Virus record (IMG/VR): IMGVR_UViG_3300025286_000126
Span: 1-25,673 of that record
Length of the DNA stretch: 25,673 nucleotides
Origin: a virus
Direction: 5' to 3' (one strand)
Numbering within the stretch: position 1 is the stretch's first letter; each line of letters begins with the position of its first letter. This document shows, piece after piece, positions 1 to 25,673 of this stretch. The notes beneath the pieces were generated by a model. It was not told where the DNA came from and searched no databases. It saw nothing but the letters and a program-made list of their open reading frames with translations. The translations under genes were made by a program, and so were the position numbers.

Positions 1-34
1 GTTCTTTTCTTATCCCTGTCCTGATGAATCTCAT
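1..34 (-). CDS. Possible start of a further leftward gene (partial, leaves window)
   Basis: An ATG at position 34 overlaps the TGA stop of the preceding membrane-anchored protein gene as ATGA, the same junction type seen elsewhere in this series. The frame stays open for 11 codons (MRFIRTGIRKE) to the window edge. The Shine-Dalgarno sequence is weak, and 11 codons are too few to identify a product. The call rests only on the junction and the continuing direction of transcription. Confidence 0.3.
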   Translation of the reverse strand, partial: MRFIRTGIRKE

Positions 35-906: not shown

Positions 907-1225
907 TTTTGCCTCCGATTTTTGACTTTATTTCATCACTCATAATTCCCACTATAGCTGCACTCGCCCCTGTCACGGGCAGGGCAAAGATTGAGAAGGC
1001 TACGAGAATTATGTCAAGGTGGGGTGCAATCTCCGCTGGCCTTGAAGTCGTTTTCCAAACAATTAAAACCCCCAAAGACACGAACGCTAAGAATAGAGGG
1101 CCAACCAGACAGATTACCAGGAACTGCGTCCCTGTGAGAACCGTTTTGCTGCTGGCCTCCAACTCCAAGATACGGCGTTGCGCTGCCAGTAATTCTTCCT
1201 TAGAATCTATGTCAGTATCAGCCAT
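896..1225 (-). CDS. Two-span membrane protein, holin candidate
   Basis: This 109-residue protein has a charged N-terminal helix (about residues 8-26, coiled-coil-like). Two hydrophobic segments follow at about 33-57 and 71-94, and the tail is Lys-rich (EIKSKIGGKNGT). The size, two spans and charged tail fit small phage holins, which permeabilise the inner membrane late in infection. Its start overlaps the end of the upstream single-span gene as ATGGCTGA, so the two are probably translationally coupled. It also overlaps the next gene by 11 bases. Holins are too diverse for sequence alone to prove the function, and no endolysin is visible in this window. The assignment rests on topology and position after the tail fibre. 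Confidence 0.7.
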   Translation of the reverse strand: MADTDIDSKEELLAAQRRILELEASSKTVLTGTQFLVICLVGPLFLAFVSLGVLIVWKTTSRPAEIAPHLDIILVAFSIFALPVTGASAAIVGIMSDEIKSKIGGKNGT

Positions 1226-1388
1226 GAATTACCGCCAACACTACCACCCCAATCAACGCCATTAGCGACGTTAGAAAGGTGGCTATCTGCCACCTCAACA
1301 GTAGGTCTTGCCTTCTCCGTAGATCTCGGACCCTTGGCAGGATACCTGTCACTACGGTCTGTGAGAGGTTCTCTATTTTGGTGTCCAT
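1218..1388 (-). CDS. 56-residue single-span membrane protein
   Basis: This short gene was found by reading the frame between the 84-residue gene and the holin candidate. It begins MDTKIENLSQTVV and has a basic stretch (RVRDLRRRQDLLLRW, about residues 19-33). It ends in one hydrophobic segment, about residues 34-55, containing MALIGVVVLAVIHG. Its TGA stop lies inside the start of the next gene (ATGGCTGA), typical of coupled phage genes. No strong Shine-Dalgarno sequence precedes the ATG, but the start is only 6 bases past the TAG stop of the upstream gene, so re-initiation is plausible. The alternative GTG-started frame at 1392 gives a hydrophilic sequence with no features. A lysis-related small membrane protein is plausible, for example a holin partner or antiholin. 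This is inferred from topology and neighbours only. Confidence 0.72.
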   Translation of the reverse strand: MDTKIENLSQTVVTGILPRVRDLRRRQDLLLRWQIATFLTSLMALIGVVVLAVIHG

Positions 1389-1394
1389 ACACAG

Positions 1395-1649
1395 CTAGCT
1401 AGCAGCCGTGAAGGTTTTGGGCGTGATGGCCGCTTCGACCTTGAGTCTATTGTTAGCTTCACCTACTAGCTTACTCGCAAACTGGTTAATCTGGTAGACG
1501 AGCCACTCAGCGTCGGACATCGCTACGCCGCCCATAGGTAACGTCTGTAGGTATAATATGCCCTTATCCTTGGTAGCCTTGTCTATGGTAACCGTCTTTG
1601 TGCTGCCGGCTCTGATAGACAACTTGATTTCGACATCTCCGTCAGCCAT
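1395..1649 (-). CDS. Small protein of unknown function downstream of the tail fibre
   Basis: This 84-residue gene has an excellent AGGAGG ribosome site 8 bases before its ATG and follows the fibre gene by only 9 bases. The N-terminal half alternates hydrophobic and polar residues (VEIKLSIRAG, KTVTID), suggesting beta strands. The second half contains a likely helix (about residues 46-65, DAEWLVYQINQFASKLVGEA). It has no signal peptide, membrane segment or known motif. Its position suggests a tail-associated or fibre-accessory protein, but I do not recognise a family. Confidence 0.75.
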   Translation of the reverse strand: MADGDVEIKLSIRAGSTKTVTIDKATKDKGILYLQTLPMGGVAMSDAEWLVYQINQFASKLVGEANNRLKVEAAITPKTFTAAS

Positions 1650-1658
1650 ATAATCCTC

Positions 1659-4325
1659 CTAAACTAACACTTGGTCCCTAAGTTTTTTGACTTCGTTCAG
1701 CAACAGTACAGACAACATAGAGTAACGCACCGAGTAGGGTTTGCCTTCCCTCATATTCACAAGCTCCGGCAAGACTCTGTGAACCTCCTCTGCCGTCAGT
1801 CCGAAATCATCAGTCTCACCTTCTGACTTGGGCCAACTTTCAGGGGCATCAGATTTCTTTTCTCCAAATCGATATGACCTAGGTTGTAGTTGATAGATCA
1901 AGTTAGTGTCAATATCCAATGACCGTTTATCATACTTGTAGTATTCACTGGATGTCACGCTGTGCAGTTCATTACTACCATTTATGTTGACATCAGTTGA
2001 GGCGCTGGCAGCAAGCAAATTCGGTGCGAAGAGACCGCCGTCCGTAGCAATTTGGAAACAGTCAGCACCACCCCAGAATCTGAGGTTTCCACTAGTCCAT
2101 ACAATCGCAGGGGAATTGCTACTGTTATCCCCAGCATACAAATAGACATGATCCGCCCCGCCAGAGTCAGCTTTTATCTGAGCGGCGCTTCCAACGGCGG
2201 ATAACGCAACCCCCGCTTCCGCGGTAGCCGCTCCAGCAACAATACTTCCAACGACCGCTAGAGCATCTTCAGACTCATCCCAGAGCAGATACTTCCCGCT
2301 CGTAGCTCCGAAAAACTGAACATCATGCCCGGTATCATTAACCCCAACCGTCAGGGTTCCCCTCTGCACAACACCATCAGCCGAGGTATCCCAATGCCAG
2401 TACCTACTGGCAGTGTCTCCGTACAATTTAAGATCGTAACCCTGATCATCTACCCCCACCAGAATCGAACCGTCAATCTGCATATTACCGTCTATATCAA
2501 CAGCGTCTAGATTAGATGTACCGTCAATATCCATGTTTCCTGAGATATCCAGCTCCGTAGCGATCACCTTATCATTGAAAGTGGCGGCCCCAGCCGCGCT
2601 CATGTCCAGCGTAAGGGCGGTTATGGTACTCCCGCCGTCATTACCATTGATAATCAGGTCCTTGTCCTGTACGGCAGTCGCGATTACAAAGTCTGAGTTG
2701 CCATTCTTTGTCATCGTACATATAGTTGTAGCGTCAACATTGAAGTGGAAATCAGCGCCCCCAGAGTCGAACACTATGTCTGAGGAGGCGTCGAGAGTTA
2801 TGCCAGTACCGTCAACTTCAAAAGTCCCATCGGCTGTGATCTGTATGTTCGCATCCGTACCAGCAGCATCTACCGTAACAAGAGAAAAAGCCCCGTTAGT
2901 GGCGGCGGTCATGGTCACGGTATCGCTGGAACTTGGCGTCATTACTATTGAATCATCAGTAATAACCGTGGATCCTACGGTAAAGTCAGTGGTAGCGTCT
3001 ACAGTCCCGGCAAACGTTACGTTAGCACCACTAAAGGTAGCTGCCGTAGTCCCCGATGAACTGGATTTGATTAGCAGTTCACCACTATTGTTATTCAGTG
3101 TCCCAAAGAGTGTCCCATCGTCCTTGAGGAATATATCAGCCCCACCAGCATCTAGAATAATATCCGTTCCCGCGTCTAGCTCTATGCCTCCAGCATCGGA
3201 TAGAAGCTCGATAGAGCCCGTACCAGTACCTTGATCTGCGTGGAGTACGATAGTCTCGGACGTACCCCCGTCAGCCGTCAGGAGAAGAGCGTTTGCCCCA
3301 TTAAGCCCAGACTTTATGTTAATCCCGCCTACGTCAGAGAGTAGCTGTATTGATGACGCACCCTCTGTGGCCGCTGTACCCTGATCATTGAACAAGGTCA
3401 TGGTAGAACTAGTGCCGCCGTCTACCGTCAGGTTAACGGCGTTAGCCAGGTTGGCAGTAGACCTTATCCCTATCCCACCCGCGTCAGACAGCAGAGATAT
3501 AGACTCGGCTCCTTCTGTGACTGAAGTACCTTGGTCATTAAATATGGCAATAGAGCCTGTCGTGCCGCCGTCACTAGTGATATTCACCGCCTTGGCTAAG
3601 TTAGCTGTAGACCGAATCCCAACACCACCAGCATCTGAGAGTATATTTATAGACTCGGCACCCTCGGTAACTGACGTACCTTGGTCAGCATGAATCTTGA
3701 TCGTGCCACTTGTACCTGCGTTCTCTCGTAGATAGATAGCAGCGGCAGCGTCGTAGGTAGATAGAAGGTCTATATCTCCTGATGACGCGATATCAAAATC
3801 AGTTACATCGAAGTCAGCCGTTCCGTTTACATCTAATGTAGTAGTAACCGTCAGGATTCCTCCGACAGTTACAGTGGATGCCGCCGCGTTCGCACCGTTG
3901 GTTATAGTCAAGTAGTCAATAATAGTACCCGCAGAAGCCTTATCTGAGCCTATGGCAAGGGTGTCTGAGGCAGAAGCCTGCATCCTCCACCCATCACCCG
4001 CATCATCCGCCTGATCCGCAAAGAAGTAGATAGGCGCAGCCGCACCTTCCACACCACGCACCTTTAGACTTGCGGTATCCACCCCCTTGGTGGTGATCTC
4101 GTCAGACCAGAGTATGTACCTAACACTGGTGCCTGACGTTATCTTTATATCGTAGGTAGTATCAAGACTTGTCTCTGTAAATGACCAGGCACCGTTGCTA
4201 TCCGTAGTGGTAGAGGTTTCCTGTGAAGTTGTTCCTGTTTCCAAAAGCGCAACGGTTGCCCCGTTAACAGGGTCTCCGTCATCCTGAAATAGCTTCCCGC
4301 TTAAATCAATATCAGTTATAGCCAT
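1659..4325 (-). CDS. Tail fibre/spike with 50-residue repeats and C-terminal S74 self-cleaving chaperone
   Basis: This is an 888-residue fibre-type protein. Residues 1-90 resemble an Ig-like carboxypeptidase-regulatory/Cna-B fold (GxxxxxDGDPVNGATVALL, then DSNGAWSF), probably the virion-proximal end or an adhesive module. Residues 201 to about 396 hold four copies of an exact 50-residue repeat built on DQGT, EGAESI, LLSDAGG and DGGTS. From about residue 400 there is repetitive beta-rich shaft. The last 97 residues match the Peptidase_S74 intramolecular chaperone, with SxxxxK spacing at S792 and K797, GLTAEEVHRVLPELV and a terminal coiled coil (LLLNEVKKLRDQV). In characterised S74 proteins, such as endosialidases, this domain folds a trimer and then cuts itself off just before the serine. 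That makes a receptor-binding fibre the likely role here. The ribosome site is GGAG, and the start is 3 bases after the previous gene. Confidence 0.93.
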   Translation of the reverse strand: MAITDIDLSGKLFQDDGDPVNGATVALLETGTTSQETSTTTDSNGAWSFTETSLDTTYDIKITSGTSVRYILWSDEITTKGVDTASLKVRGVEGAAAPIYFFADQADDAGDGWRMQASASDTLAIGSDKASAGTIIDYLTITNGANAAASTVTVGGILTVTTTLDVNGTADFDVTDFDIASSGDIDLLSTYDAAAAIYLRENAGTSGTIKIHADQGTSVTEGAESINILSDAGGVGIRSTANLAKAVNITSDGGTTGSIAIFNDQGTSVTEGAESISLLSDAGGIGIRSTANLANAVNLTVDGGTSSTMTLFNDQGTAATEGASSIQLLSDVGGINIKSGLNGANALLLTADGGTSETIVLHADQGTGTGSIELLSDAGGIELDAGTDIILDAGGADIFLKDDGTLFGTLNNNSGELLIKSSSSGTTAATFSGANVTFAGTVDATTDFTVGSTVITDDSIVMTPSSSDTVTMTAATNGAFSLVTVDAAGTDANIQITADGTFEVDGTGITLDASSDIVFDSGGADFHFNVDATTICTMTKNGNSDFVIATAVQDKDLIINGNDGGSTITALTLDMSAAGAATFNDKVIATELDISGNMDIDGTSNLDAVDIDGNMQIDGSILVGVDDQGYDLKLYGDTASRYWHWDTSADGVVQRGTLTVGVNDTGHDVQFFGATSGKYLLWDESEDALAVVGSIVAGAATAEAGVALSAVGSAAQIKADSGGADHVYLYAGDNSSNSPAIVWTSGNLRFWGGADCFQIATDGGLFAPNLLAASASTDVNINGSNELHSVTSSEYYKYDKRSLDIDTNLIYQLQPRSYRFGEKKSDAPESWPKSEGETDDFGLTAEEVHRVLPELVNMREGKPYSVRYSMLSVLLLNEVKKLRDQVLV
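3138..3725 (-). repeat. Four in-frame 150-bp repeats in the fibre gene
   Basis: These bases encode fibre residues 201-396. The protein repeats with a strict 50-residue period for three copies (201-250, 251-300, 301-350), then a shorter, more divergent fourth copy. Conserved positions include DQGT, EGA.SI, LLSDAGGI and DGGTS. The repeats are diverged at DNA level, which points to old duplications maintained for structure rather than a recent expansion. Confidence 0.88.
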
Positions 4326-4328
4326 AAT

Positions 4329-4709
4329 CTACTCCCAGCTATGATCACGGTACTGGAGAGCCTCTGAAATCACCCAGTCCGGGTCCTGTACCAACTTATC
4401 ATGCTCTAACATTATCAGCGTTACGCCCTGACCAGCAAGTTGAGCCTTCGATAACACATCCATTCCTCGTGTCTCAATACCGCTATGATGACTGTAAAAC
4501 GACTCCTGTACCTGCATCGCTAGATCGGGAGGATCAGTGAACGTAAAGTCTGTCTCTATACTACTCTCTAAGCGCCTTCCCTGAGTACGAGGCTGGTAAT
4601 TAAAGTCCTTTCCAGGTTCCTTCCCAGCACGAACTAATGCCTCGAATGCCACATATGCCGCTTCACTACCCCGCCATCCTTCTGGCACCGTGCCACTTTG
4701 TGTAGTCAC
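4329..4709 (-). CDS. PD-(D/E)XK-like nuclease-fold protein in the tail module
   Basis: This 126-residue protein reads from a GTG start with TAAGGA upstream. Residues 18-70 resemble small restriction-endonuclease-fold proteins found in phage tail gene clusters: a helix (AAYVAFEALVRAGKEPGKDF), a GRR loop, a strand with D54 (TDFTF), then VQES with E69 in the Q-x-E position of the fold, followed by FYSHH. A second strand-helix pair (GVTLIMLEHDKLVQDP) follows, as in VSR/PD-(D/E)XK proteins. The pattern is partial and activity is not shown by sequence alone; some such proteins are degenerate structural modules. It lies between a small beta protein and the fibre gene, 3 bases from the latter. It could be a virion-associated nuclease or a tail accessory that keeps only the fold. 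Confidence 0.62.
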   Translation of the reverse strand: MTTQSGTVPEGWRGSEAAYVAFEALVRAGKEPGKDFNYQPRTQGRRLESSIETDFTFTDPPDLAMQVQESFYSHHSGIETRGMDVLSKAQLAGQGVTLIMLEHDKLVQDPDWVISEALQYRDHSWE

Positions 4710-4726
4710 TGCTTTTCCTTACGCAT

Positions 4727-5020
4727 CTACCCATCCAATATCACGGCCCAACAGACTTTATCTCCGTTGGTAGCCGCGTCTACGTATATAGTAGAAAATG
4801 CGATAGTGCCGCCTGCGGCCTTAAAGTCTATCTCTATCTCATTCCCAGCGGATAGCTCATACCCATTGGTCGCGGTAACATCACTGACCCCTAGATATGT
4901 AATGCCAGAGTTAGCCGCAAGAGCCTTAGCTTTGATCCATAATACTCTGTTAGTGGTATTAGATATCCGCTGCTCTGTACCTGCCGTACTGATAGTTGTG
5001 GTACCCGCGTCGAAAATCAT
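4727..5020 (-). CDS. Small beta-sandwich virion protein (putative)
   Basis: This 97-residue protein is made almost wholly of short hydrophobic/polar alternating strands (ISTAGTEQRIS, VLWIKAKAL, ITYLGVSDV, YELSAGNEIEIDF). Its ending, IYVDAATNGDKVCWAVI, is typical of small phage structural beta proteins found next to tail or decoration genes. It has no signal peptide or membrane segment. Its ATG overlaps the end of the 694-residue propeller gene as ATGA, with GGTGGA upstream, so the two are likely coupled. A virion surface or tail-tip role is inferred from fold and context. Confidence 0.7.
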   Translation of the reverse strand: MIFDAGTTTISTAGTEQRISNTTNRVLWIKAKALAANSGITYLGVSDVTATNGYELSAGNEIEIDFKAAGGTIAFSTIYVDAATNGDKVCWAVILDG

Positions 5021-7101
5021 GGTTCCACCAGATTTATAGTAGATACTCCGCGCTCATCGTACCCACTGTATTCCAGGCCCGTGGCGCTAGCAACGTCTAC
5101 ATAGAAATTACGTGTACCTCCGCTATCGTCACGGAAGGTGAACTCTACTAACGTGGTACTCTCTACCGCAGCTAGAAGTGCCGCACGTAGATCCTTAGAA
5201 CTCTTACTTTTATACTCTTTATTGAGATCCACCTGTACTTGGTGTCCCCACTTAGCAGGTAGTTTCTTTCTCCACTCCAAGGTTAAGGAGACCATATCAG
5301 GAGTTTTCTTTTTGTAGTTAGCCGTTGTCGTAACATTTGTACGTATCAACGCTACTTTGAACTTGATGGCACGGAAGGCAGTACCAGCAGAAGAACCGAA
5401 TGTGAATGTTGTTATACCCGAGGTCGCCCCAAGAGTAGTGCTAGTAATCTCACTGACATCATTCCCATCCGCATCTCTGAAAACCGAATAACTTTCCGAA
5501 TAGTCGGTAGCGTAGGTCACCGTTATCTTCTCTGTTGTAGATAAATCCTGTGCTTCTACCCTAAGCTTGAGAGCTAGTTTATCTACCTCACTCTGCCCCG
5601 CGTTAAACCAGGGGGTCTCATGGGTACCACTTACGGCATATTCAAACTCACTCACTCTAGACGGATTAATGATATCAACAGGGAGTTTCATGTAGTATAC
5701 GTGATCATCAAACCCGAACCAAAGACGATAGTTCTCATTCACATCTGAATAGGCGTTCGATACGTGCATAGCGTCGATTCTTCTGCCTTCCTTATCTGCT
5801 ACCCACTTAGCTTCCCATCCAAGCTCGTTGTACCCAAGGATGCTACTAGAACCAGTCCCCTCATTTATTACCGGGGAGCCACGCCCACCGTGTGTAGGGC
5901 TCCACTGGAACGGTACACTGTCGGAGTCTGTTATGGTCGGAGAAGTGGTAGCATCCACGCCCACGAGCAGCTCGTTATGAGTACCCTCGGTCAGCATGAT
6001 GGTGCCTCTGTTGGACTCGGGAAGCCCGTCATCCCTGTCAGGACCAACGACGGATAAAACCGCGGCATTAGTCCCGTTAACGTACCGATACAACCCCAAC
6101 CCAGAAGGGAAATATATAGAGTCTCTCCATCTATCCGCTCCTTTGCCCGCATGGGGATGGAACGGGAACTCTACCTCTGTCTTAACAAACCTGGCATTAG
6201 CCGCATCGTGCGCCCACAGGCCCTTTTTGGTAGACGCATAGAGGATAGGTTCTCCTCCTGCGTCACGGGCTACGAATAAGCCGGTGCAGTACCCAGCAGG
6301 TAAAGGCAATCGGGCATCGTCTACAGCAGTACCGTCATCATCCGATACAGTGAGCGCATACCATAACTGCCCCTCGTTAGATATTCCCCATAACCTATTA
6401 TCCCAACTTTCTAAATACTTAGTAGCCTTGGCAGTATCGGGTTTATCCCATACCCCATTATTAGTGCCGTCATAACTAGGATATCTAGCAAAAGACCATG
6501 TGCTACCTGAAGAATCATAGTGCGCCAATATCAGCCAGCTAACATTAGAACTGTCCGTGTAATTCAGCGAGTCAGTGACTTGTATCTCTATTCCCTCAAG
6601 CCCAGTATCACTGGCGTGAGCCCCGATAACATTCTCGTCACCCGCAGTCCTGCCGTCATACCATACGTCGGACGCATTGCTGTACACATATATCTTTGAA
6701 TTATTGCCTACCGCATCGTTCCATACCGCGTATATCTTGTCATTATGCTCGTTAATAGTCGCTATGCCGGTACCCGAACCAGCCGTAGCAAGACCATGCG
6801 CGACAGTATCTGTCTTATTGGCTAGGTTACCAAGTACGAGATGGTTCTTGTAACGTAGCTGGCAGTCAGACCACCAGGCACGGTTAACGTCCCCACCTGA
6901 CTCCATACGGTCTATACCGATACCCCCACGCCAGTCTGACCAGGCAACTATAGAAGTACGAGCTTGAGAATCTTTGCTGGTATCCCCTATAACAACCTTA
7001 GAAGGATATATAGAGGCTAAGACACTCTGCACAGGCCTCATTATAGGGTAATAAACCCCATTGAGACTTATCTCGTTTGGGCTCTCTACCTTTGCGACCA
7101 T
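5017..7101 (-). CDS. Large tail protein with beta-propeller-like region
   Basis: This is a 694-residue protein. Residues 40-420 contain many Trp/Tyr/Gly-rich blade-like strand groups (IVAWSDWRGGIGI, KIYAVWND, RLWGISNEGQLWYAL, PILYASTKKGLWAHD, LLVGVDATTSP), as in beta-propellers. The C-terminal 200 residues look like beta-sandwich domains (AEKITVTYATDY-type strands, then VEFTFRDDSGGTRNFYVDV). No signal peptide or membrane segment is present. It starts with TAATG overlapping the adaptor gene and ends with ATGA overlapping the small beta protein gene. By position after the adaptor-like gene and before the fibre it is probably a tail nozzle, hub or fibre-attachment protein of a short tail. Exact family is not recognised, and blade boundaries are approximate. 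Confidence 0.72.
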   Translation of the reverse strand: MVAKVESPNEISLNGVYYPIMRPVQSVLASIYPSKVVIGDTSKDSQARTSIVAWSDWRGGIGIDRMESGGDVNRAWWSDCQLRYKNHLVLGNLANKTDTVAHGLATAGSGTGIATINEHNDKIYAVWNDAVGNNSKIYVYSNASDVWYDGRTAGDENVIGAHASDTGLEGIEIQVTDSLNYTDSSNVSWLILAHYDSSGSTWSFARYPSYDGTNNGVWDKPDTAKATKYLESWDNRLWGISNEGQLWYALTVSDDDGTAVDDARLPLPAGYCTGLFVARDAGGEPILYASTKKGLWAHDAANARFVKTEVEFPFHPHAGKGADRWRDSIYFPSGLGLYRYVNGTNAAVLSVVGPDRDDGLPESNRGTIMLTEGTHNELLVGVDATTSPTITDSDSVPFQWSPTHGGRGSPVINEGTGSSSILGYNELGWEAKWVADKEGRRIDAMHVSNAYSDVNENYRLWFGFDDHVYYMKLPVDIINPSRVSEFEYAVSGTHETPWFNAGQSEVDKLALKLRVEAQDLSTTEKITVTYATDYSESYSVFRDADGNDVSEITSTTLGATSGITTFTFGSSAGTAFRAIKFKVALIRTNVTTTANYKKKTPDMVSLTLEWRKKLPAKWGHQVQVDLNKEYKSKSSKDLRAALLAAVESTTLVEFTFRDDSGGTRNFYVDVASATGLEYSGYDERGVSTINLVEP

Positions 7102-8375
7102 TATTCAACCAGCCGTACATTAGTTAGAAGTGGTAGCGACCTCTTGGCACGATTAGCCATACCGAACCAGAAACCTGCCTGAGAGCGGCGTTGGTCAGGA
7201 TCTGTGCCGCTACCACCAGAAGTAGCCGCGAAGGCCCTTGCTGTGGCAGCAGCTATTAGATACTCCTCGTTGATCTCGGAGGTGTCGGAGTCTGAGGTTA
7301 GTAGGGCAGGCTTATCACCACCCACTATCTTGAGTAGATTATACCGGGCTACCCCGTGAGCGTAGCTATCTAATACCACATCCTTGGCCTCTTTATCGAT
7401 CTTCCAGAGGTTACGAGGTATTTTGACCCACTCTGCGGTGTCGTTCTTTACCGCACTGATATCGTCCAGCCATATGGTACAGGCCCCAAGATCCGAATCG
7501 TACTCAAGTCCCACTGAAATAATAGCAGTGTCGGTCTCAGGATTGGAAAGTGCCATTCGTACAAAAGTCCATGTGTCTGCCGAGAGAGCAGGAACATTGA
7601 GTGTTTCTATAGGACTAGCACATGACGCAGTATTGTCTAGTAAGAGTTTAAGATTACCCGCGCTAGTAGCTACCGTACTCTTTACCCACATTTCTATATA
7701 GTCGTATCCGCTGATATTCTTACTAGAAATTGAGTCAGTAGCAATATCCCCGGCAGATGCCCCGGCAGCTATTACGAATTTACAGCTCTGAGTTCCCTGC
7801 TTTTTATCCTTCGTATCAAGAGATACCGTTATATCACTATCAACCGTCTCGTCAAACGCCTCGGCACACGCATGGAGACGTGTAAAGTCCACGCTGTTGC
7901 GATAGTAGATATCTTGAATCATGGATATACCAGACGGAACATCGAATCTCTGCTGATGACCGTCTGTATGAAAAGAGAGATTCTCTATAGGATCCCAAGC
8001 CCTACCTGTAGCTTCAAGGATAGCCTGGTTAATGAAGTCGTTTAGTACTGTGGGATTATACTCGTCATCCCATAGTTCATATGAGTCTGAAGTAGTCGAA
8101 GCCGCAGCAGCACTTAGAACAGGCGACACTGTAAGCGTCGTAGAACTAGATGTGTAATCAGATGCCCGAGTAGTTTCTACGGTACTGGCAGAATCGTCAA
8201 CGAAAACAACCCACCTACCGTTATGGTTGTCATCTGCACCGATAAGCGTGTTATCTACAATGGTTGACCCGTCACTTGCGCCGTTACCACTAGGCGACGA
8301 TACATATACCGCACCTAAATTATACCCAATGCTTTGACGAAGCTGGGCGCGGGTTCGTCCGTGAATAACTGCCAT
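7101..8375 (-). CDS. Adaptor/head-tail connector-like protein with inserted jelly-roll domain
   Basis: This is a 424-residue protein. The N-terminal helix (TRAQLRQSIGYNLG) and the stretch about residues 108-124 (PTVLNDFINQAILEATGR), with the C-terminal helices (EINEEYLIAAATARAFA), resemble adaptor proteins that dock below the portal. Residues about 168-310 look like a separate beta jelly roll of the carbohydrate-binding-module/galactose-binding type. They carry CKFVIAAGA, YDYIEMWVKS, LNVPALSADTWTFVRM and a closing CTIWLDDISAV, which fits the TWxxV ... DDI signature of CBM-like domains. Position between the capsid-side genes and the propeller gene fits a connector. Its stop overlaps the propeller gene start as TAATG. 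The adaptor role is inferred; the jelly-roll insertion is visible in the sequence pattern. Confidence 0.7.
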   Translation of the reverse strand: MAVIHGRTRAQLRQSIGYNLGAVYVSSPSGNGASDGSTIVDNTLIGADDNHNGRWVVFVDDSASTVETTRASDYTSSSTTLTVSPVLSAAAASTTSDSYELWDDEYNPTVLNDFINQAILEATGRAWDPIENLSFHTDGHQQRFDVPSGISMIQDIYYRNSVDFTRLHACAEAFDETVDSDITVSLDTKDKKQGTQSCKFVIAAGASAGDIATDSISSKNISGYDYIEMWVKSTVATSAGNLKLLLDNTASCASPIETLNVPALSADTWTFVRMALSNPETDTAIISVGLEYDSDLGACTIWLDDISAVKNDTAEWVKIPRNLWKIDKEAKDVVLDSYAHGVARYNLLKIVGGDKPALLTSDSDTSEINEEYLIAAATARAFAATSGGSGTDPDQRRSQAGFWFGMANRAKRSLPLLTNVRLVE

Positions 8376-18040: not shown

Positions 18041-20011
18041 TTAACTAAATTCCCCGTTAAGGCCAAGTGGGTCGCCTCTTTGACTTCTACGTATATAATC
18101 AGAACTATCCGTACCCCACGTTGGATTCATTGAGATGATTTTTGGATTGTCTACCCCCCAAGGTTCTGTCGGATCCTGACCAAGAAGTGTGTCCTGTGGT
18201 TGCGTCTGGTACGTACTAGGGGTTACATAGTCCGGGGGCGTTGGTTGTCTTGTAACGGCCCAGGGGCCACCTACCTTCTCACTAAGATACGCAGCAAGTC
18301 CTATTTTCTCCTCTGGGGATACAAACTGTTGATCATATTTCCACTGGTTAACGAAGTGCATAAAACCTATTTCTCTACGTTTACCGTGTTCTCCTCGGCC
18401 TGTGATACCGCCCCTAACTCTCGCGGCATCTATCTGGTTTTGCTTATCAATATCGCTACCGTAATGTATGCTCTGCCATATCGCACGGTCTGATAAATTG
18501 TATTCATGGAGTCCAGCTTGGAGTGTGGCGGAGGGTGGTTCTGTCATAAATCCTAACTTAACTAGGAGATTCCAACTATCCTCTTGAACATCCTTATTAT
18601 AGAAAGCAGCTTTTCCGGCTTTGTCTGTAATACCATACCCTGTCATATTCCAGCCTGCCCAACCGTGTTTATCTCGTTCTTCTTGACTCATACCCGCGTA
18701 ATTATGCTCTGGTTTTCGTAGGTCAAGACTAGCTAAATACCACTCTCCACGTCTAATAGGATACCAATAGTTAATATTATTCTGCATAGCAGGGGTCTCT
18801 GCGGCCCTACCCATGTAACGGTTAGCTAGGGCATTGAATGCAAACTTAGGGCTATCAACTCCTACTTCGTATATTGTTTTAGCCTGTTGTGGCAATAATG
18901 CAAGGTTGTATGCGTCTAATACTAATTTACGTGGGTCTTTTTCTTTAGTTGTGGAGGGGCCTACTTTAAGTTTATCTTTTGCTGCTGCGGCATCGGTCAC
19001 CGGATCTATATCGGCATCGGTCACCGGATCTATATCGGCACCCGCTGCTGCGGCTGATGGTGCGGCTGCTGTGGCTGATGGTGCGGCTGCTGTGGCTGAT
19101 GGTGCGGCTGCTGTGGCTGATGGTGGTGGTGGTGGTGGTGGTATATCCAGCTCATCATCATTGAGCATAAGATAATGAGGAGGAGAGAGTTGGAATTCCT
19201 CCTGATATCTCGCTAAAAACTCATTATATGCCTTTAGTACCCTGGTTTTCATACTAGCAAATAGATCCGGTGAAGGCTGCCTCTTGGTAAGTTTATGTAC
19301 GTATGTAGAGCCAATAAGATCGTAGTCCTTATATATAATAGAAAGTATCTCGGCTTTGAAGTGATCCCTATCATAAGTCGGTTCCACTGATTTATCAAAA
19401 TAATCTCTATCAGCGTCATAGGGGCCGCCCTCCTCTCCCTCCTTTGCAGCATCTTTGAACTTCTTATATAGAAGATCTAGTCTGCTCTGTTCTATGGCTT
19501 CTTTTCGTTCCATATCAGTTGGAGGAGGATAATAGGACGTAGGTTTAACAATAGTAGGACTAAGAATGTCGTCGGTAAAGGTACTACTAAGATCTCCAAC
19601 TATAGGATCCCCGCCCAACACAGGCCCTACTTCTGTTGGATCCATACCCAACAGCGTTGCCGGATCTGTCGTTTGGTAACCTGTGTCTATGCCAGATGCA
19701 AATTGACGGAAACCACTTCGCAATAAACGTGCAGGTATCTCGACCTGGTTAGGTGGAGCTAAAGGGTAAGGAGGAATATCAAAAGGAGCAGAAGGAGGAG
19801 GAGGAGGTGGTGTTACGCCCTGAAAGTTGTCCCGAGTCAAAGGTATCTTGCGTATCGGATCCCCCTCTATATCATCTGGGTAATACCTATCCTTATCTAG
19901 TTTTGCCTTCTCATCAAAGGCATCCCAAAATTCGTGCATATTCACACCATGACGCGCTGCATATTCTTGAGCAGCCTTCTGGATGCGATCTTTCGGAGCT
20001 AATAATGCCAT
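18041..20011 (-). CDS. Proline/alanine-linker structural protein of unknown function
   Basis: This is a 656-residue protein. Residues 1-45 form a charged helical start (RIQKAAQEYAARHGVNMHEF). Residues 67-90 are a proline-rich stretch, and residues 145-285 are acidic and helical. Near residue 290 begins a linker of seven prolines, three 7-residue SATAAAP units and two 8-residue ADIDPVTD units, ending about residue 340. The C-terminal 300 residues are folded-looking and Trp/Tyr-rich (NYWYPIRRGEWYLASLDLRK, then HGWAGWNMTGYGITDKAG). They contain a GGITGRGEHGKRREIG loop. No family is recognised. The two-domain-plus-linker build and the place after the portal suggest a minor head or internal virion protein. 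The ribosome site is weak. Confidence 0.72.
   Translation of the reverse strand: MALLAPKDRIQKAAQEYAARHGVNMHEFWDAFDEKAKLDKDRYYPDDIEGDPIRKIPLTRDNFQGVTPPPPPPSAPFDIPPYPLAPPNQVEIPARLLRSGFRQFASGIDTGYQTTDPATLLGMDPTEVGPVLGGDPIVGDLSSTFTDDILSPTIVKPTSYYPPPTDMERKEAIEQSRLDLLYKKFKDAAKEGEEGGPYDADRDYFDKSVEPTYDRDHFKAEILSIIYKDYDLIGSTYVHKLTKRQPSPDLFASMKTRVLKAYNEFLARYQEEFQLSPPHYLMLNDDELDIPPPPPPPSATAAAPSATAAAPSATAAAPSAAAAGADIDPVTDADIDPVTDAAAAKDKLKVGPSTTKEKDPRKLVLDAYNLALLPQQAKTIYEVGVDSPKFAFNALANRYMGRAAETPAMQNNINYWYPIRRGEWYLASLDLRKPEHNYAGMSQEERDKHGWAGWNMTGYGITDKAGKAAFYNKDVQEDSWNLLVKLGFMTEPPSATLQAGLHEYNLSDRAIWQSIHYGSDIDKQNQIDAARVRGGITGRGEHGKRREIGFMHFVNQWKYDQQFVSPEEKIGLAAYLSEKVGGPWAVTRQPTPPDYVTPSTYQTQPQDTLLGQDPTEPWGVDNPKIISMNPTWGTDSSDYIRRSQRGDPLGLNGEFS
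18990..19142 (-). repeat. In-frame repeat cluster coding a Pro/Ala/Asp linker
   Basis: Two identical 24-bp units (18990-19013 and 19014-19037) encode ADIDPVTD twice. Three identical 21-bp units (19052-19072, 19073-19093, 19094-19114) encode SATAAAP. A trinucleotide run of about 22 bases (19121-19142) encodes prolines. Base-perfect copies imply recent slippage or duplication. Copy number is likely to vary among relatives without breaking the frame, since every unit is a multiple of three. Confidence 0.93.
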
Positions 20012-20433: not shown

Positions 20434-22299
20434 TTACCCTCTCGGCCCGACTAGGCCTATTCTACGTAACCGTTCTCCTTCTGACAACGCCCCTGGCCTT
20501 GGTTGCCCAGGCGGTCCTACCGGCCCTGTCGGGGGAGTAGGCATAGGGGGCGGAATTCCCGCTGCCGCGGGCGGCATCATCTGAGGCGGAGGCATAGGAG
20601 GAGGACCTGGAGGTGGCGGCGGAGGGCCTGCAATATCGGATGGCACATTACCGTTCCCCGCAGAGGGAGGTCCCGGGGGCATTCCCTGACCGCCGCCTTG
20701 TAGAGTATCCGACATTTTCCTAGCTTTAGCAAACAGCATAGAAACCAGCTCTCCGAAATACATCTGTGCCAGGTCTTCTCTGCCCTGTTTCATAGCGGCC
20801 TGGTACAGGGACCATATCCCTGCTTCCGGCAGGGTACGTTCAGCTATTTGTTCTTTCACTGCGTCTTCTATCTGGTCAGCGTCTTGTATACCCAGGATAT
20901 TATCTCTGATCCAGAGGTCTGGCATCAGAGGAGTTGGCCCTTCTCTAGCTATCTGGGCCATACCGTAACGAGACATATCGTCTTCAGGCAGTTTCGGAGC
21001 GACCTTTATCTCGGGGTCTCCTCCGTCTCGTATCCTCTCGGGGGTGATCTCCTCCGAGAAGTACATCCTGTTATTGTCCTGACCGCTTAGTTCCACTGCT
21101 TTGAACGATCCAGTCTGGTACTGGTCGCACAGAAGGTTAGATATTTGCGTATACGCGCTCTCTACGGCCTGGACCCTAGGTATCAGGACTGTCTCTACCC
21201 CTTGTCTGAGGGTATTGATGGCGAATCCTGACAGTTGGAACTGTAGCTCCCCGTATACCGAGTGAGGTACAGACCCTCTCTGCATCTCTCCCGATACCAG
21301 ACCCATGAACGCCCCTGACTCTCTGGCCATTTCGAGTAGTCCCAGGGGTTCGATGTCTTCCCCTTGCCCCAGAGATATCTCCGTACCTTCCTGATACGGG
21401 TCTTCGTCCAGGGTTTTAGCGCCGTCCCTGCTCCTAACTTTCAGACCTTGTTTTCTGGAGCGGGCCGTCAGCTCTAGCATAACGGACATCATGAAGTTAT
21501 GTTTCTCGTACAGGGCTCTGGTGGACTTGAACACTGACTCCCCATAGTCTTCCAGGGTATCTTCTATCGAAGACCATTCCATAGACTGCACCAGGGGAGT
21601 TGCTCCTACCGGCCCAAGAAATACTGGGACTTGTTCCGCGCCGTGGGGGGTTTTCTTCTTAATAAACCTCCCAGGGACAACAACGACGTTGCTTTCGTTG
21701 TCATAGTAGTCATAGACAGCGACGCCGTCGTCATCGTCCCTGCCATCGCCGAGACGCACACCGTATTGGCTTTCGATCTCAGTTCGAGTTTTCTTGATCT
21801 TGTAGCAGGCCCACGCTAGGCCGTCTGCCCCAACGCCCCAGTACGTGTGCATAGGATCCCACGGTGTTATATCAATGACGGTGGTTCCGTCCTTTTTCTT
21901 AACAAGCATAGCCCTTCCCGAGTACCAACCCCTTACGGCTATATACCATGCGAGTTGGGATTTCAGGGAGGGAACGAGTCTATTTCGGAGCCTATCGTTA
22001 GCGGATCTAAGCGCCCCTATAATAAACCTCTCCTTATCGTTATTAACCGCCCTGGTGTTACGGGGGTTACCGTTAGGAGGGATACGTATTACCAGGTCTG
22101 CGCCTGTCATCCACGAGATAATCTTATCCGCGTATGTCTGAGGTTCGTTAGACGTATACGACTTATACCCGTCTCCCGCGTCGTACTCTTCCAGCTTATA
22201 GAGCTGATGATCAGCGTCCATGCGGTTACGTAGCGGGTGGGTAGATTCGTAATGAGCGTCCACCTTATCGATAATATCTTCTGGTTTTAGCCTTGCCAT
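20434..22299 (-). CDS. Portal protein with proline-rich C-terminal tail
   Basis: This 621-residue protein follows the large terminase by 11 bases. Its start region is typical of portals (YADKIISWMTGADLVIRIPP, then KERFIIGALRSANDRLRN). The AWYIAVRGWYSGRAMLVKKKDG and ITPWDPMHTYWG stretches match the wing region, in which a WDP motif is common. The stem and long helices include YGELQFQLSGFAINTLRQG. Residues about 535-621 form a Pro/Gly/Met-rich, probably disordered tail ending basic (EGERLRRIGLVGPRG). The portal forms the 12-subunit DNA entry ring at one capsid vertex and binds the terminase. The long proline tail is unusual and could be exposed inside the head or bind neighbours. Confidence 0.9.
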   Translation of the reverse strand: MARLKPEDIIDKVDAHYESTHPLRNRMDADHQLYKLEEYDAGDGYKSYTSNEPQTYADKIISWMTGADLVIRIPPNGNPRNTRAVNNDKERFIIGALRSANDRLRNRLVPSLKSQLAWYIAVRGWYSGRAMLVKKKDGTTVIDITPWDPMHTYWGVGADGLAWACYKIKKTRTEIESQYGVRLGDGRDDDDGVAVYDYYDNESNVVVVPGRFIKKKTPHGAEQVPVFLGPVGATPLVQSMEWSSIEDTLEDYGESVFKSTRALYEKHNFMMSVMLELTARSRKQGLKVRSRDGAKTLDEDPYQEGTEISLGQGEDIEPLGLLEMARESGAFMGLVSGEMQRGSVPHSVYGELQFQLSGFAINTLRQGVETVLIPRVQAVESAYTQISNLLCDQYQTGSFKAVELSGQDNNRMYFSEEITPERIRDGGDPEIKVAPKLPEDDMSRYGMAQIAREGPTPLMPDLWIRDNILGIQDADQIEDAVKEQIAERTLPEAGIWSLYQAAMKQGREDLAQMYFGELVSMLFAKARKMSDTLQGGGQGMPPGPPSAGNGNVPSDIAGPPPPPPGPPPMPPPQMMPPAAAGIPPPMPTPPTGPVGPPGQPRPGALSEGERLRRIGLVGPRG

Positions 22300-22310: not shown

Positions 22311-23696
22311 TTAGTTTGTGGTCCAGCGTTTAACTTTAATAAAGTCCTTACCGTTAACGTATCCGTACCCGAACCGGCTTACCAGCCCGTATATGACCGC
22401 TTTAACGGCGTGATTGTTCTTATCTTCGGGCGTATCGCCCACTATATTCCCTTCCCTGTCGGTTTTCCACCTATAAGCCCTGGTCTGTCCGTCGAAAGGG
22501 GAGGGGACTGCGCCGAACTCCGATAGTATCCCCCTGCATTTAGGGGAGAAGGTTACTTTAGGTCTGTGCGTGACTGGGTCAGGCTTTAAGAAACCTTTAA
22601 GTCTCTCCGTTCCTTCGTTTATCCGTATCTTCTGGGCGTCCAGGTATATCCCCGTTCTGTCCATCCACAGCTCTGCTGGAGCTGACATAGCCTGGTGCTG
22701 ATACCCCGCGATATCGATAGTTCCCGAGTGTACGTCCTTCCACCACGGCTTATTGGTCACGATATCTATGATCCCGTCCGTAGTGAGTCCCTGCTCGTAC
22801 ACCTCGTCGAAGACACATATCTGATCGTTAATATCTTGAGCCGCCATTACGGCGTATGCTCCTGCGTATCCTGGGTCCATCCAGAGGTAGACCTGTTCTC
22901 CCGGCACCCATTCGGCTTCTTCGTCCACGTGTATATCCGTGCGGAACTCTCCGAACACGAGACCTGTAGGAGGGGACGGGATCCCCTGTATACGCTCCAT
23001 AAAGAACTCGTCCGAGGCTTGTGTCCGCAGCTTTTGTATCTCCGGGTCATTAATACCCCCTGGGTACAGGTAAGCGTTAGAATAGCTCGGTAGCGAGAAA
23101 CTCTCCTCATCTTCTGTAGGCATCTGCCATGAGGAGAAAAGTTGGGGATACCATCCTAGGGACCCCTCGAAAGTACCTGACAGGAAGAGCCAGCCCCGTT
23201 TAGGCGCTACTCTACCTCTGAGTCTATAGAACGAGTTAAGATCTAACTGTGACGCTTCACATCCAAGCACCCCGTCAGGGGCTCTCATAGCGAGTGTTCT
23301 GGGATCTTTCGCCGATTTAGTCTCTATCCTGGTACCGTCAGCGAGTACGATACGTCCCGGGTCCACCCTCTTAGTGACCTCTTCCAGTATTCCCAGAGCC
23401 GAGAAGTCCTCTACCAGGTAGTCGAACTCCGCTCTTGTGCGTTCGTAGTCCGCAGCTACCAGCCAATAGAGCCCTTTTCCTTCCGTCTCCAGGAATCTCG
23501 ACACCAGATACTTAGACGCCACCATACTCTTACCGGCCTGCTCCCCGCCAGCAACCAGAACAAACCGTTTTCTGCAATTAAGAATATCCGCCTGGAGCTT
23601 CGTAGGTAAGAAGTCCAGTTGCGAGAATATATACTGCGTGATAGCGGGACTATTAGGCGGCCTAGCCCCTTGTAGTTCCGCTGTTAGAGTTGCCAT
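22311..23696 (-). CDS. terL: Terminase large subunit (packaging ATPase-nuclease)
   Basis: This 461-residue protein packages phage DNA into the capsid. The Walker A motif is GGEQAGKS at residues 50-57. The Walker B-like strand is GVLGCEA (142-148), with E147 as the candidate catalytic acid. The coupling motif SGT is at 173-175. The nuclease half begins at about 265, with D274 in YLWMDPG, D297/E298 in FDEVY, D328 in TIDIAG and NNHAVKAVIYG at 427-437. In many large terminases the last motif reads NHxxDA with an aspartate; here a lysine (K432) is in that place, so D425 or another acid may serve. The AGGAG ribosome site lies in the end of the small-subunit gene, with a 35-base overlap. The length is normal for the family. 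Confidence 0.94.
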   Translation of the reverse strand: MATLTAELQGARPPNSPAITQYIFSQLDFLPTKLQADILNCRKRFVLVAGGEQAGKSMVASKYLVSRFLETEGKGLYWLVAADYERTRAEFDYLVEDFSALGILEEVTKRVDPGRIVLADGTRIETKSAKDPRTLAMRAPDGVLGCEASQLDLNSFYRLRGRVAPKRGWLFLSGTFEGSLGWYPQLFSSWQMPTEDEESFSLPSYSNAYLYPGGINDPEIQKLRTQASDEFFMERIQGIPSPPTGLVFGEFRTDIHVDEEAEWVPGEQVYLWMDPGYAGAYAVMAAQDINDQICVFDEVYEQGLTTDGIIDIVTNKPWWKDVHSGTIDIAGYQHQAMSAPAELWMDRTGIYLDAQKIRINEGTERLKGFLKPDPVTHRPKVTFSPKCRGILSEFGAVPSPFDGQTRAYRWKTDREGNIVGDTPEDKNNHAVKAVIYGLVSRFGYGYVNGKDFIKVKRWTTN

Positions 23697-24177
23697 CAGA
23701 TCTCCTAGCCAGGATCTTCTGGGCCTCTGCCACCGCTTCTTCTCTCTCTATCTCTGACTCCGTCCTAGTTTCCTTCTTCTTCTTCCCTTCCTTAGACGCC
23801 TTGATCCCCTTCTTCAACCACTTCCTCCACTCCGCCATCATCTCCTTAGCGGCATCACTACCAGCGCTCTGATCTTTCCTATACCTCTCGGGCCAATGCG
23901 CGTTAAGAAGCGTAATTAACAATACCGGGTTGTCCCCAGGCTTCTGTACCTTAACCCTATCAATAGCTATATCCTGTAAATACTCACGGAAACTATGCTT
24001 CGCAGTCTCATATAATTCCTTAAACCCGTAGGTATCACTCCTGATCCACCCATATATAGTGTTCCTCGGCACGTTAACCGCCATAGCTGACTTACGTACC
24101 GACCCAACACTAGAAAACTCCACGAGGAACTGAGCCATCTTCTTCCTCGTATTTATCTCCCGCTCAGTCTTCCCCAT
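23662..24177 (-). CDS. terS: Terminase small subunit
   Basis: This 171-residue protein recognises phage DNA and recruits the large terminase. A helix-turn-helix spans residues about 25-50 (SVRKSAMAVNVPRNTIYGWI), followed by FKELYETAKHSFREYL. The NPVLLITLLNAHWPERYRKD segment is the characteristic LLIxLLxAxxPERYR pattern of phage TerS and TerS-like proteins. The C-terminal 60 residues are very charged (KGIKASKEGKKKKETRTESE). A GAGGGT ribosome site precedes the ATG. It overlaps the HTH gene upstream by 14 bases and the large terminase by 35. Confidence 0.88.
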   Translation of the reverse strand: MGKTEREINTRKKMAQFLVEFSSVGSVRKSAMAVNVPRNTIYGWIRSDTYGFKELYETAKHSFREYLQDIAIDRVKVQKPGDNPVLLITLLNAHWPERYRKDQSAGSDAAKEMMAEWRKWLKKGIKASKEGKKKKETRTESEIEREEAVAEAQKILARRSDGNSNSGTTRG

Positions 24178-24379
24178 TACCCTCGTTATCCTTCCTAGCT
24201 ATATGTAACCTTCGAGCTATCTGTCCTACCCTCTGCCTACTCACCCCAAACATACCACCCACCGCCTCATAGGTAAGATCCGGCTGTAACACTATAGCCC
24301 TACCAATATCCCTGGATCTCTTAGTAACTCTCCCAGTACCACTATGCTTAGTGTACCTATCATACCCAGCAATCTCCAT
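24164..24379 (-). CDS. Small helix-turn-helix protein, first gene of the leftward series
   Basis: This is a 71-residue protein from an ATG at 24379, with GGGGGGAG 4 bases upstream. A TTG at 24499 would give 111 residues, but that longer frame runs over the perfect TTGACA of the likely promoter, so the shorter start is preferred. Residues about 31-58 form a sigma-region-4-like helix-turn-helix (LTYEAVGGMFGVSRQRVGQI, then ARRLHI). The N-terminal part is basic (RVTKRSRDIGR). Being next to the small terminase, it could be a transcription regulator of the late series or a second DNA-recognition component for packaging. The two cannot be told apart from sequence. Confidence 0.75.
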   Translation of the reverse strand: MEIAGYDRYTKHSGTGRVTKRSRDIGRAIVLQPDLTYEAVGGMFGVSRQRVGQIARRLHIARKDNEGNGED

Positions 24380-24413
24380 ACATCTCCCCCCATAATAACC
24401 ATTCGCAACCCCA

Positions 24414-24442
24414 AACGTACCGCAATCACCCAAAAATGTCAA
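24414..24442 (-). promoter_or_regulatory. Leftward promoter candidate for the structural series
   Basis: On the minus strand, TTGACA (24442-24437) is followed after 17 bases by TACGTT (24419-24414). The -35 box is perfect; the -10 box matches the consensus at three positions, including the first two and the last. Transcription would begin about 25-30 bases before the ATG at 24379. It is the only well-placed promoter seen ahead of the terminase genes. Confidence 0.55.
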
Positions 24443-24542
24443 TTTATGTACCAATGTTTTACACATAACTTTGCACGGCAGTTTCGGCTTCGCCTGCAAG
24501 TTGCACGGCTAACACGGTGATTTACAGCACCATATCCCATAT

Positions 24543-24569
24543 CTTGATCCCCTTGATCCCCTTGATCCC
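24543..24569. repeat. Three tandem 9-bp repeats (CTTGATCCC)
   Basis: Three perfect copies of CTTGATCCC lie head to tail, followed by a partial CTT. They sit about 100 bases upstream of the leftward promoter -35 box. Each copy holds a GATC site, so the array is also a triple Dam-type motif. Confidence 0.92.
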
Positions 24570-24619
24570 CTTCAATAACATATAATCCCCACGCAGTTTC
24601 TGACAATGCGTGAAATGTT

Positions 24620-24660
24620 GATTCTCGATTCCATATACTAGGTTAGAATCGTGGAATCGA
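24620..24660. promoter_or_regulatory. Interleaved inverted sites GATTC/GAATC
   Basis: GATTCT (24620-24625) pairs with AGAATC (24645-24650), and TCGATTCCA (24625-24633) pairs with TGGAATCGA (24652-24660). Four GATTC/GAATC half-sites therefore lie in 41 bp in a, b, a', b' order. This could be a cooperative repressor-binding site. If transcribed, it could fold as a pseudoknot. Confidence 0.65.
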
Positions 24661-24681
24661 CTTTCTAAAAACCCCAGAAAT

Positions 24682-24771
24682 ATCACCTGTGATGTCCGTG
24701 ACAGTACGTGTGACACCTCTCCCGCCCCTGTTAATTCACTCCCATGTGATACCCGTGATATTTATGTGACA
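24682..24771. repeat. Two GTGA-rich imperfect direct repeats
   Basis: Copies at 24688-24715 and 24745-24771 share the frame TGTGAT, then CCGTGA, then TGTGACA, with one base of length difference. The first is entered by an ATCAC-CT-GTGAT palindrome (24682-24693). Three GTGA half-sites per copy, spaced about 11 bases apart, fall roughly on one face of the helix. This fits a regulator or initiator-protein binding array. Confidence 0.72.
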
Positions 24772-24877
24772 GAATTCTTAAATAACGTGTAGGTGCATAT
24801 CAAGAAGAAAAGGGCCTTTAGAGTAAAATTTCTGTCATTGATACCCATACTCTTGCATAGAGACTCCCAAGGCATCC

Positions 24878-24966
24878 CCCCTCTTGGGGAGGGGATTCCC
24901 TTCCCCTCTTGGGAGGGGACTCCCCTCACCTCTTAGGAGGGGACTCCCTTCCCCTCTTAGGAGGGG
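24878..24966. repeat. Four tandem 24-25 bp hairpin repeats
   Basis: Each unit carries CCCCTC, then a 4-5 base loop (TTGGG, TTGG or TTAG), then GAGGGG. Units begin at 24878, 24903, 24927 and 24951. The third has one stem mismatch (CACCTC). The spacers read ATTCCCTT, ACTCCCCT and ACTCCCTT. All four can form 6-bp G/C hairpins on either strand, and the G-tracts could also pair as quadruplexes. Confidence 0.93.
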
Positions 24967-25056
24967 AGCGCGTACCATACCTACTACCAGCCGTACCATG
25001 TCACACAGGCCAGCGGAAACACTAGCAGAGCTAGATTTAAATCTTCTTCGACGTAC

Positions 25057-25096
25057 AGATAGAGAGATAGAGAGATAGAGAGATAGAGAGATAGAG
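25057..25096. repeat. Five tandem 8-bp AGATAGAG repeats
   Basis: Five perfect head-to-tail copies of AGATAGAG give a 40-base purine-rich run on the plus strand, ending 5 bases before the large hairpin. It is likely to unwind easily and to vary in copy number by slippage. Confidence 0.95.
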
Positions 25097-25101
25097 TCTT
25101 A

Positions 25102-25157
25102 TATTCTCCCAGGATCACATAATTCCCAATAGAGGGAATTCTGTGATCCTGAGAATA
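25102..25157. terminator. Large 56-bp inverted repeat (hairpin)
   Basis: The left arm is 25102-25127 and the right arm 25134-25157, with a 6-base loop. Pairing is TATTCTC with GAGAATA, AGGATCACA with TGTGATCCT, and AATTCCC with GGGAATT. The only flaws are a 2-base bulge (CC at 25109-25110) and one mismatch (25120 with 25141). There is no T-run on either side, so intrinsic termination is doubtful. An origin hairpin, protein-binding site or RNA-processing element is equally possible, so the type given here is only the nearest available. Confidence 0.55.
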
Positions 25158-25190
25158 ATACTTTATAATCTTAAAGTTAACTTCTTTATC

Positions 25191-25244
25191 TTATTCTTAC
25201 TCTTACTCTTATTCTTACTCTTACTCTTATTCTTACTCTTACTC
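25191..25244. repeat. Three tandem 18-bp pyrimidine-rich repeats
   Basis: Three perfect copies of TTATTCTTACTCTTACTC occupy 25191-25208, 25209-25226 and 25227-25244. Each contains smaller TTACTC and TTATTC sub-repeats. The run is almost free of G on the plus strand, opposite in bias to the AGATAGAG run on the other side of the large hairpin. Confidence 0.95.
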
Positions 25245-25370
25245 TTCAATTCTTTGTATTTATAAATGTGACTCTTGATATGGAAGAATAATCCATCCCT
25301 CCCAAACCAATCTCACTCTGATATCTCCCATTTCTCACTAAATATTGCTATAAATTCGGTCCAATAACTA

Positions 25371-25400
25371 TTGACAAGCATAATGACATGATGTTACTGT
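25371..25400 (+). promoter_or_regulatory. Rightward promoter candidate for the plus-strand gene
   Basis: TTGACA at 25371-25376 is followed after 18 bases by TACTGT (25395-25400). The -35 box is perfect and the -10 box is fair. A GTTAC/GTAAC inverted pair (25393-25397 and 25414-25418) overlaps the -10 and start region and could be an operator. The gene starts 45 bases downstream of the -10 box. Confidence 0.55.
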
Positions 25401-25445
25401 AAATGAGATCAGTGTAACAACACACATAATCAGCGGGGGGCAGAA

Positions 25446-25673
25446 ATGACAGTAACACGAAAGACACTCATAGCATTCGCAGACATGGCATTAACTCTCA
25501 CTACCAATACCTTGCCAGACTGCCCAGACAATCACGACAATCGGACGCACAACGACGGAACACAGACACGCGGTACCTGGTGCTACTACTATGAGAAATT
25601 TGATACCTGGTTTGACACGATAGCATCCAGCACGCTGGAGTCTGTCCCGTTTTCAGTCTTCATTAAGGGAAAT
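25446..25673 (+). CDS. Partial rightward gene of unknown function
   Basis: This is the only supported plus-strand gene. It reads open from the ATG at 25446 to the window edge, 76 codons. It begins MTVTRKTLIAFADMALTL and is followed by a polar, Asp/Asn/Thr-rich part and an aromatic stretch (TWCYYYEKFDTWFDTI). The ribosome site is a run of six G (25435-25440) 5 bases from the ATG, and a TTGACA promoter lies ahead. It is probably the first gene of the early or replication half. I do not recognise a family; the N-terminal 18 residues could form an amphipathic helix. Confidence 0.7.
   Translation, partial: MTVTRKTLIAFADMALTLTTNTLPDCPDNHDNRTHNDGTQTRGTWCYYYEKFDTWFDTIASSTLESVPFSVFIKGN

Follow-up and report, generated by a model that had tools for sequence, protein, structure and literature searches.

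Genes and predicted promoters flanking the divergent region

The window, by which we mean the whole 25,673-base stretch of DNA analyzed here (virus record IMGVR_UViG_3300025286_000126), has no DNA-level similarity among annotated phages. Nearly all of it is occupied by a leftward operon, which we designate late on inferred grounds, as we do early for the opposite side. The head of this operon comprises a small helix-turn-helix (HTH) gene (24164..24379, minus strand; sigma-70 region 4-like, E 8.5e-4, a match below the curated Pfam cut-off), followed by the genes for the terminase small subunit (TerS; 23662..24177, minus strand; phrog_4044, E 2.4e-9), the terminase large subunit (TerL; 22311..23696, minus strand; ~25% identity and E 1e-18 in tblastn against annotated terminases) and, as assigned by position, the portal (20434-22299, minus strand). 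The start codon of the HTH gene, ATG at 24379, was picked by homology and by GGGGGGAG upstream of it. Since the gene most likely begins there, the non-coding stretch runs from about 24380 to 25445, leaving between the operons a spacer of ~1,066 bp without convincing genes; the initial annotation had given 24500-25445, which is indeed non-coding, but with its left limit drawn too far inward. On the other side, a rightward early gene starts at 25446 and is cut by the window end (25446..25673, plus strand). It belongs to no recognized family and, used as a probe, it retrieved zero relatives.

TerL has 414 relatives in IMG/VR, and the TerL search led to 80 viral contigs with 73-100% identity. In the relatives, the leftward terminase/structural operon lies on one side of the region and a rightward operon with replication genes on the other, and the gene maps of six genomes (G006, G008, G009, G013, G015 and G016) all place the non-coding region between divergent early and late blocks. 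The early/late boundary that had been proposed at the flip of gene direction is borne out by this gene content and by a late promoter shared within the family. Three TerL relatives with 54-55% identity (L168, L169 and L170) sit in three Chloroflexota MAGs, which may be taken as a weak hint at the host of these uncultivated phages.

The putative late promoter, TTGACA-N17-TACGTT (24414..24442, minus strand, with TTGACA at 24442-24437), combines the features expected of a sigma-70 promoter: the TTGACA hexamer, a 17-nt spacer, a -10 hexamer and a location in front of the operon and its HTH gene that is conserved in relatives. Its -10 hexamer TACGTT matches TATAAT at three of six positions, which leaves transcription from it predicted. 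Two copies of GGTAC accompany the promoter, one overlapping the -10 (24417-24421) and one just upstream of the -35 (24448-24452), and the layout GGTAC-TTGACA-N17-TACGTT precedes the HTH gene in most relatives. Indeed, the GGTAC promoter accompanies the HTH gene at 22 of 27 distinct loci and occurs at none of the 49 that lack this gene, and variant promoter forms occur in some of the five HTH loci lacking the standard form. As a genome-wide site family GGTAC was rejected, being common everywhere and special solely in its late-promoter placement. We propose that this leftward sigma-70-type promoter with its GGTAC copies would drive the HTH-TerS-TerL-portal operon, and that the product of its first gene, the small HTH protein, is probably autoregulatory and recognizes the GGTAC copies.

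The rightward promoter is less clear. A bare TTGACA ahead of the rightward gene (25371..25376, plus strand) is a weak early-promoter candidate that lacks an acceptable -10, and no rightward promoter was scored in the window. Family-wide, rightward promoters are enriched (23 of 53 versus 8.65 in shuffles), and such a promoter would drive the early operon. Of the two TTGACA promoters said to flank the 24500-25445 interval, the left one is thus well supported, although it lies outside that interval, and the right one is a weak candidate. No terminator hairpins were scored.

Repeats and their turnover among relatives

The non-coding stretch is crowded with repeats, and every repeat and palindrome that the initial annotation listed was found in the sequence. 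Tandem Repeats Finder reports four arrays: a 9-bp array of CTTGATCCC x3.3 (24543..24572), a 24-bp unit x3.7 that equals the four G/C hairpins and begins in a C-run belonging to the conserved element described below (24878..24967), an 8-bp array of AGATAGAG x5 (25057..25096) and an 18-bp array of TCTTATTCTTACTCTTAC x3.2 (25189..25246), the last being itself composed of a degenerate 6-mer x9.7. Together with a long hairpin (25107-25127/25134-25154; 21-nt arms, 90% complementary, 6-nt loop) these arrays lie within 0.95 kb. A GATTC/GAATC inverted pair with 9-nt arms (24625-24633/24652-24660) and a GTGA cluster (24683..24770, plus strand; six copies between 24689 and 24769) are found in the same stretch. 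The repeats are real and well above chance: in composition-matched shuffles of 24500-25445, a tandem array scoring at least 50 arose in 4 of 500, versus four arrays observed, and a hairpin with 18-nt arms in none of 100. The few further arrays elsewhere in the window are located within genes; 24-bp and 21-bp tandem arrays at 18988-19142, inside gene 18041-20011, have periods that are multiples of three.

The region is repeat-rich in relatives as well, but the repeats are lineage-specific. Sister L005 is near-identical to the window up to the 18-bp array, within which the similarity stops, with patchy differences earlier and unrelated sequence beyond; it has the 9-bp array, an identical long hairpin (25107-25154) and a degraded 8-bp array. 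Sister L002, with a 100% identical TerL and the same gene order, lacks nearly all window repeats and has none of the window's arrays; it carries a two-copy 9-bp array of different sequence, TTTTGAGTA, plus other short repeats. The 9-bp array is likewise replaced in L084, and the 24-bp G/C hairpin array, absent as an array in L002, has fewer units there. L018 and L020 hold different 9-bp arrays and inverted arrays based on 6 bp. In both sisters, repeats have been replaced wholesale around the bipartite element, and the eye-catching repeats would mostly represent fast-changing spacer DNA.

Of the combined origin and late/early switch initially proposed, the early/late boundary is supported, whereas an origin with initiator sites in these repeats is not, since the gene order is preserved in relatives where the listed repeats are different or absent, L002 having hardly any of them. 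Such a finding had been named at the outset as one that would refute the proposal. Direct repeats common to close relatives, as in an iteron-type origin, were not found among L002 and L084, where they differ or are lacking, or L005, where they are partly degraded.

The period of the arrays is a recurring trait. When runs of at least nine matching bases were scored at each lag, period 9 stood out in the spacer preceding the late promoter, with 35 cases over 34 kb of sequence from 27 relatives and a median of ~2 at other lags. Of the arrays divided at the element, 24 belong to 9.3 kb of late-side and 2 to 10.8 kb of early-side sequence. This excess is gone in a wider sample centered on the element, and the period-9 arrays therefore belong to the late-side spacer of HTH lineages. 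Their 9-mers are mostly unrelated in sequence between relatives. In some loci (L049, L018 and L046) the arrays form inverted pairs. We rejected the idea that the HTH protein binds the period-9 arrays, since the HTH region of L002 is 91% identical, yet its 9-mer differs. That the repeats themselves are functional, as the iterons, unwinding element and hairpins first suggested, appears improbable: their abundance far beyond chance and the late-side recurrence of period 9 would fit such a role, but not one of the window's arrays occurs in a sister whose TerL protein is identical, and copy number and sequence shift among sisters.

A conserved bipartite element between the predicted promoters

The striking repeats are a poor guide to this region, as its conserved site went unnoticed in one sequence and emerged by comparing many relatives. 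A k-mer comparison of relatives, followed by a profile search, revealed one strongly conserved non-coding block in nearly all relatives that cover the region; the k-mer motif search in the spacers gave little besides. This conserved bipartite element is a new result of this analysis: the initial list omits 24815-24881, the most conserved feature of the region. It consists of a CTTTA box, block A, a 24-nt spacer and block B (24815..24881, plus strand; 49 bits in the window). An alignment of 66 distinct sequences, ungapped over the aligned core, gives the consensus C.CTTTA-N4-AAAATTCTG[T/G]CAnGGGTA-N24-CAAGCCAT[A/G]CCCCC, in which block A extends up to GGGTA and block B follows N24. The window copy is somewhat diverged, with AAATTTCTGTCATTGATA as block A (24826..24843, plus strand) and CAAGGCATCCCCCC as block B (24868..24881, plus strand). 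Read from the consensus, the two half-sites are partly inverted and ~36 bp apart. In 11 of 62 relatives, including the window (24878-24893), a G-run lies no more than 34 nt after the C-run of block B, and the G/C hairpins thus seem to grow from the end of the element.

The element was found at 118 loci (77 distinct), never with a second copy per contig, and is traceable down to ~60% TerL identity. The Chloroflexota MAG relatives were considered as further cases and set aside, since at 54-55% TerL identity they have neither a TerS homologue nor the element; the element is also absent from 393 genomes of the class of one of these MAGs. In all 73 distinct loci with TerL on the examined contig sequence, TerL lies left of the element on the opposite strand. 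On three more element-bearing contigs a family TerL is located outside the examined piece, and some further element contigs without TerL in that piece are short and carry a TerS relative. Conversely, almost all contigs that extend 1.4 kb or more beyond TerS on its upstream side carry the element, the exceptions being a diverged virus (L069/L190) and L216. The distance from the element to TerS ranges from 226 to over 2,600 bp, and its distance to the late and rightward promoters varies as well.

These properties, i.e., anatomy, conservation, geometry and co-occurrence, are direct observations, to which any protein binding or function is added by inference. An RNA structure was rejected, as there is no Rfam match above the gathering score and consensus folding yields no structure. 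A leftward promoter (TTGG-N17-TAGATA) suits the near relatives and fails in distant ones. The element sits between both promoters, outside both predicted transcripts, and in this position it probably escapes transcription and functions at the DNA level.

The association with the terminase genes is not mirrored by the replication genes. The element is carried by 10 of the 40 contigs that bear a helicase and offer at least 8 kb upstream. Eight of these 10 contain the family TerS/TerL in the examined piece or are part of a family contig (L244), and the other two (L285 and L296) have the family TerL on the contig; one helicase contig, L236, is the same as G009. The other 30 show neither the element nor the family terminase in the examined piece, and one of them, L231, is a family contig whose element lies past the examined flank. 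Absent from helicase contigs without the family terminase, the element appears tied to the late/terminase module and not to the helicase, although the helicases compared are only weakly similar and an origin may change more rapidly than a helicase. In addition, replication modules differ under the same element, with a DUF3987-PolA fusion in L002/G001 and a CHC2 primase plus AAA_25 in G006; the G001 contig is incomplete, and a helicase may lie further right. The fusion (L002:496-4098, minus strand) is a 1200-aa protein that joins a DUF3987 helicase-like domain to a family A DNA polymerase and, apart from itself, has one weak IMG/VR relative (29%, L311).

Candidate roles and comparison with known systems

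On the strength of the sequence comparison, we consider it reasonably probable that the region is a divergent control zone with a DNA-level bipartite element as its core (as distinct from a packaging role). In this model, early and late transcription of a tailed phage would be controlled from the interval, where the two operons diverge, and the fixed-geometry element between both promoters would be the functional core. The genome of this phage would have a circular map, which measures ~40 kb in the best relative.

Our first guess for the role of the element, slightly favored and still tentative, is that it may be a terminase recognition site at which packaging starts. As expected of a pac-type site, it is conserved and linked to terS and terL, with one ambiguous exception. 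In this 40-kb contig, G014 (L163-L165), the element lies at most 75 bp from the contig edge, beside family-like early DNA, and TerL is unrelated; its early DNA (1-8068 and 31329-34524) is 90-96% identical to G008 in pieces. The contig is either a recombinant or a chimeric assembly (misassembly). A genuine recombinant would link the element to the early arm and so count against a packaging role. A cos cut at the element was rejected, since contigs run through it and their ends scatter without a shared base; the ends of G013 overlap on the far side.

A somewhat more doubtful option is a transcription switch, in which the element would serve as an operator: bending or looping of the DNA by a phage or host protein would shut off early transcription and start late transcription. 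The element lies between the late promoter and a rightward promoter enriched in relatives, its partly inverted half-sites at fixed spacing suit a dimeric or looping protein, and phage phi29 offers a precedent with p4 and p6 acting between the A2c/A2b and A3 promoters (PMC3100819). Its distance to both promoters, however, differs by hundreds of bases, no regulator was identified, and the element extends beyond the HTH lineages to which the GGTAC promoter code is limited.

A replication origin is rather unlikely as the role of the element, although an origin somewhere in this interval is possible. The element, alone or with the variable repeats, would then be the site of initiator binding and DNA opening. 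Its placement between divergent early and late blocks is that of the Ceduovirus origins, whose types are wholly different (PMC7150918), and its two partly inverted half-sites in probably untranscribed DNA would be compatible with this role. The region is also richer in A+T than its surroundings (G+C 0.42 versus ~0.48), but the 24-nt spacer of the element is A+T-rich in near relatives only, and 41 kb contain just 6 DnaA-like boxes. L011 has two DnaA-box-like sites (TTGTGGATA and TTGTGGATAA) immediately after block B. Cumulative GC skew, proposed at the outset as a check, reaches its lowest point within or close to the region in three relatives (G013, G006 and G008). The ends of G013 overlap as strain variants (438 nt, 79.5%), which indicates a circular map of ~39.7 kb; on this map the minimum lies at 27676, 0.3 kb away from the element at 27351, and the maximum at the opposite, convergent gene junction, as it also does in G008 and G009. 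The arms of G013 measure 27 kb (late) and 12 kb (early), and its slope is uniform across the antipode at ~7.4 kb (-412 at 8 kb, -868 at 16 kb and -1245 at 24 kb). A skew whose slope is unaltered at the antipode and reverses where the genes converge reflects gene direction, which accounts for it fully, and is therefore uninformative on the origin. The sharing of the element by different replication modules and its absence from helicase relatives without the terminase weigh against an origin as well. For a role outside terminase, switch and origin we reserve a small chance.

Returning to the element as a docking site, the 67-bp sequence may represent a new type of phage cis site, at which the terminase (or an initiator) docks with exact 24-nt spacing in an undescribed marine family, a proposal to which we give a little less than an even chance. 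If true, a docking site would remain constant while nearly all the rest of the control region, down to the late promoter code, is replaced. As a single-copy, orientation-locked site, the element provides a handle to map genome circles and locate the start of packaging or replication, and it could identify family members among contigs without known genes.

Several known systems resemble this arrangement in part. In the pac region of SPP1, TerS binds pacL and pacR, which flank the cut (PMC6316719). The likeness lies in the bipartite layout and in the proximity to terS where the late operon begins; pac, however, overlaps promoters and the start of gene 1, whereas the element described here lies past the late promoter and is separated from terS, which is downstream of it, by 226 to over 2,600 bp. 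The A2c-A2b/A3 region of phi29 is similar in that sites for regulatory proteins are located between early and late promoters (PMC3100819), and differs in that promoter distances are variable in the relatives studied here. SPP1 oriL/oriR, of the iteron type, likewise has direct repeats next to A+T-rich DNA (PMC6316719), whereas here the repeats are unconserved between sisters and no initiator gene was recognized. Origins of the Lactococcus Ceduovirus phages lie in the divergent region and fall into types without mutual sequence similarity (PMC7150918). As in phage c2 of this genus, two divergent transcription blocks enclose a variable non-coding region with unrelated types among close relatives (PMC7150918), but in the present family, where the origin role is putative and terS/terL adjoin the region, a strictly conserved bipartite element survives the turnover.
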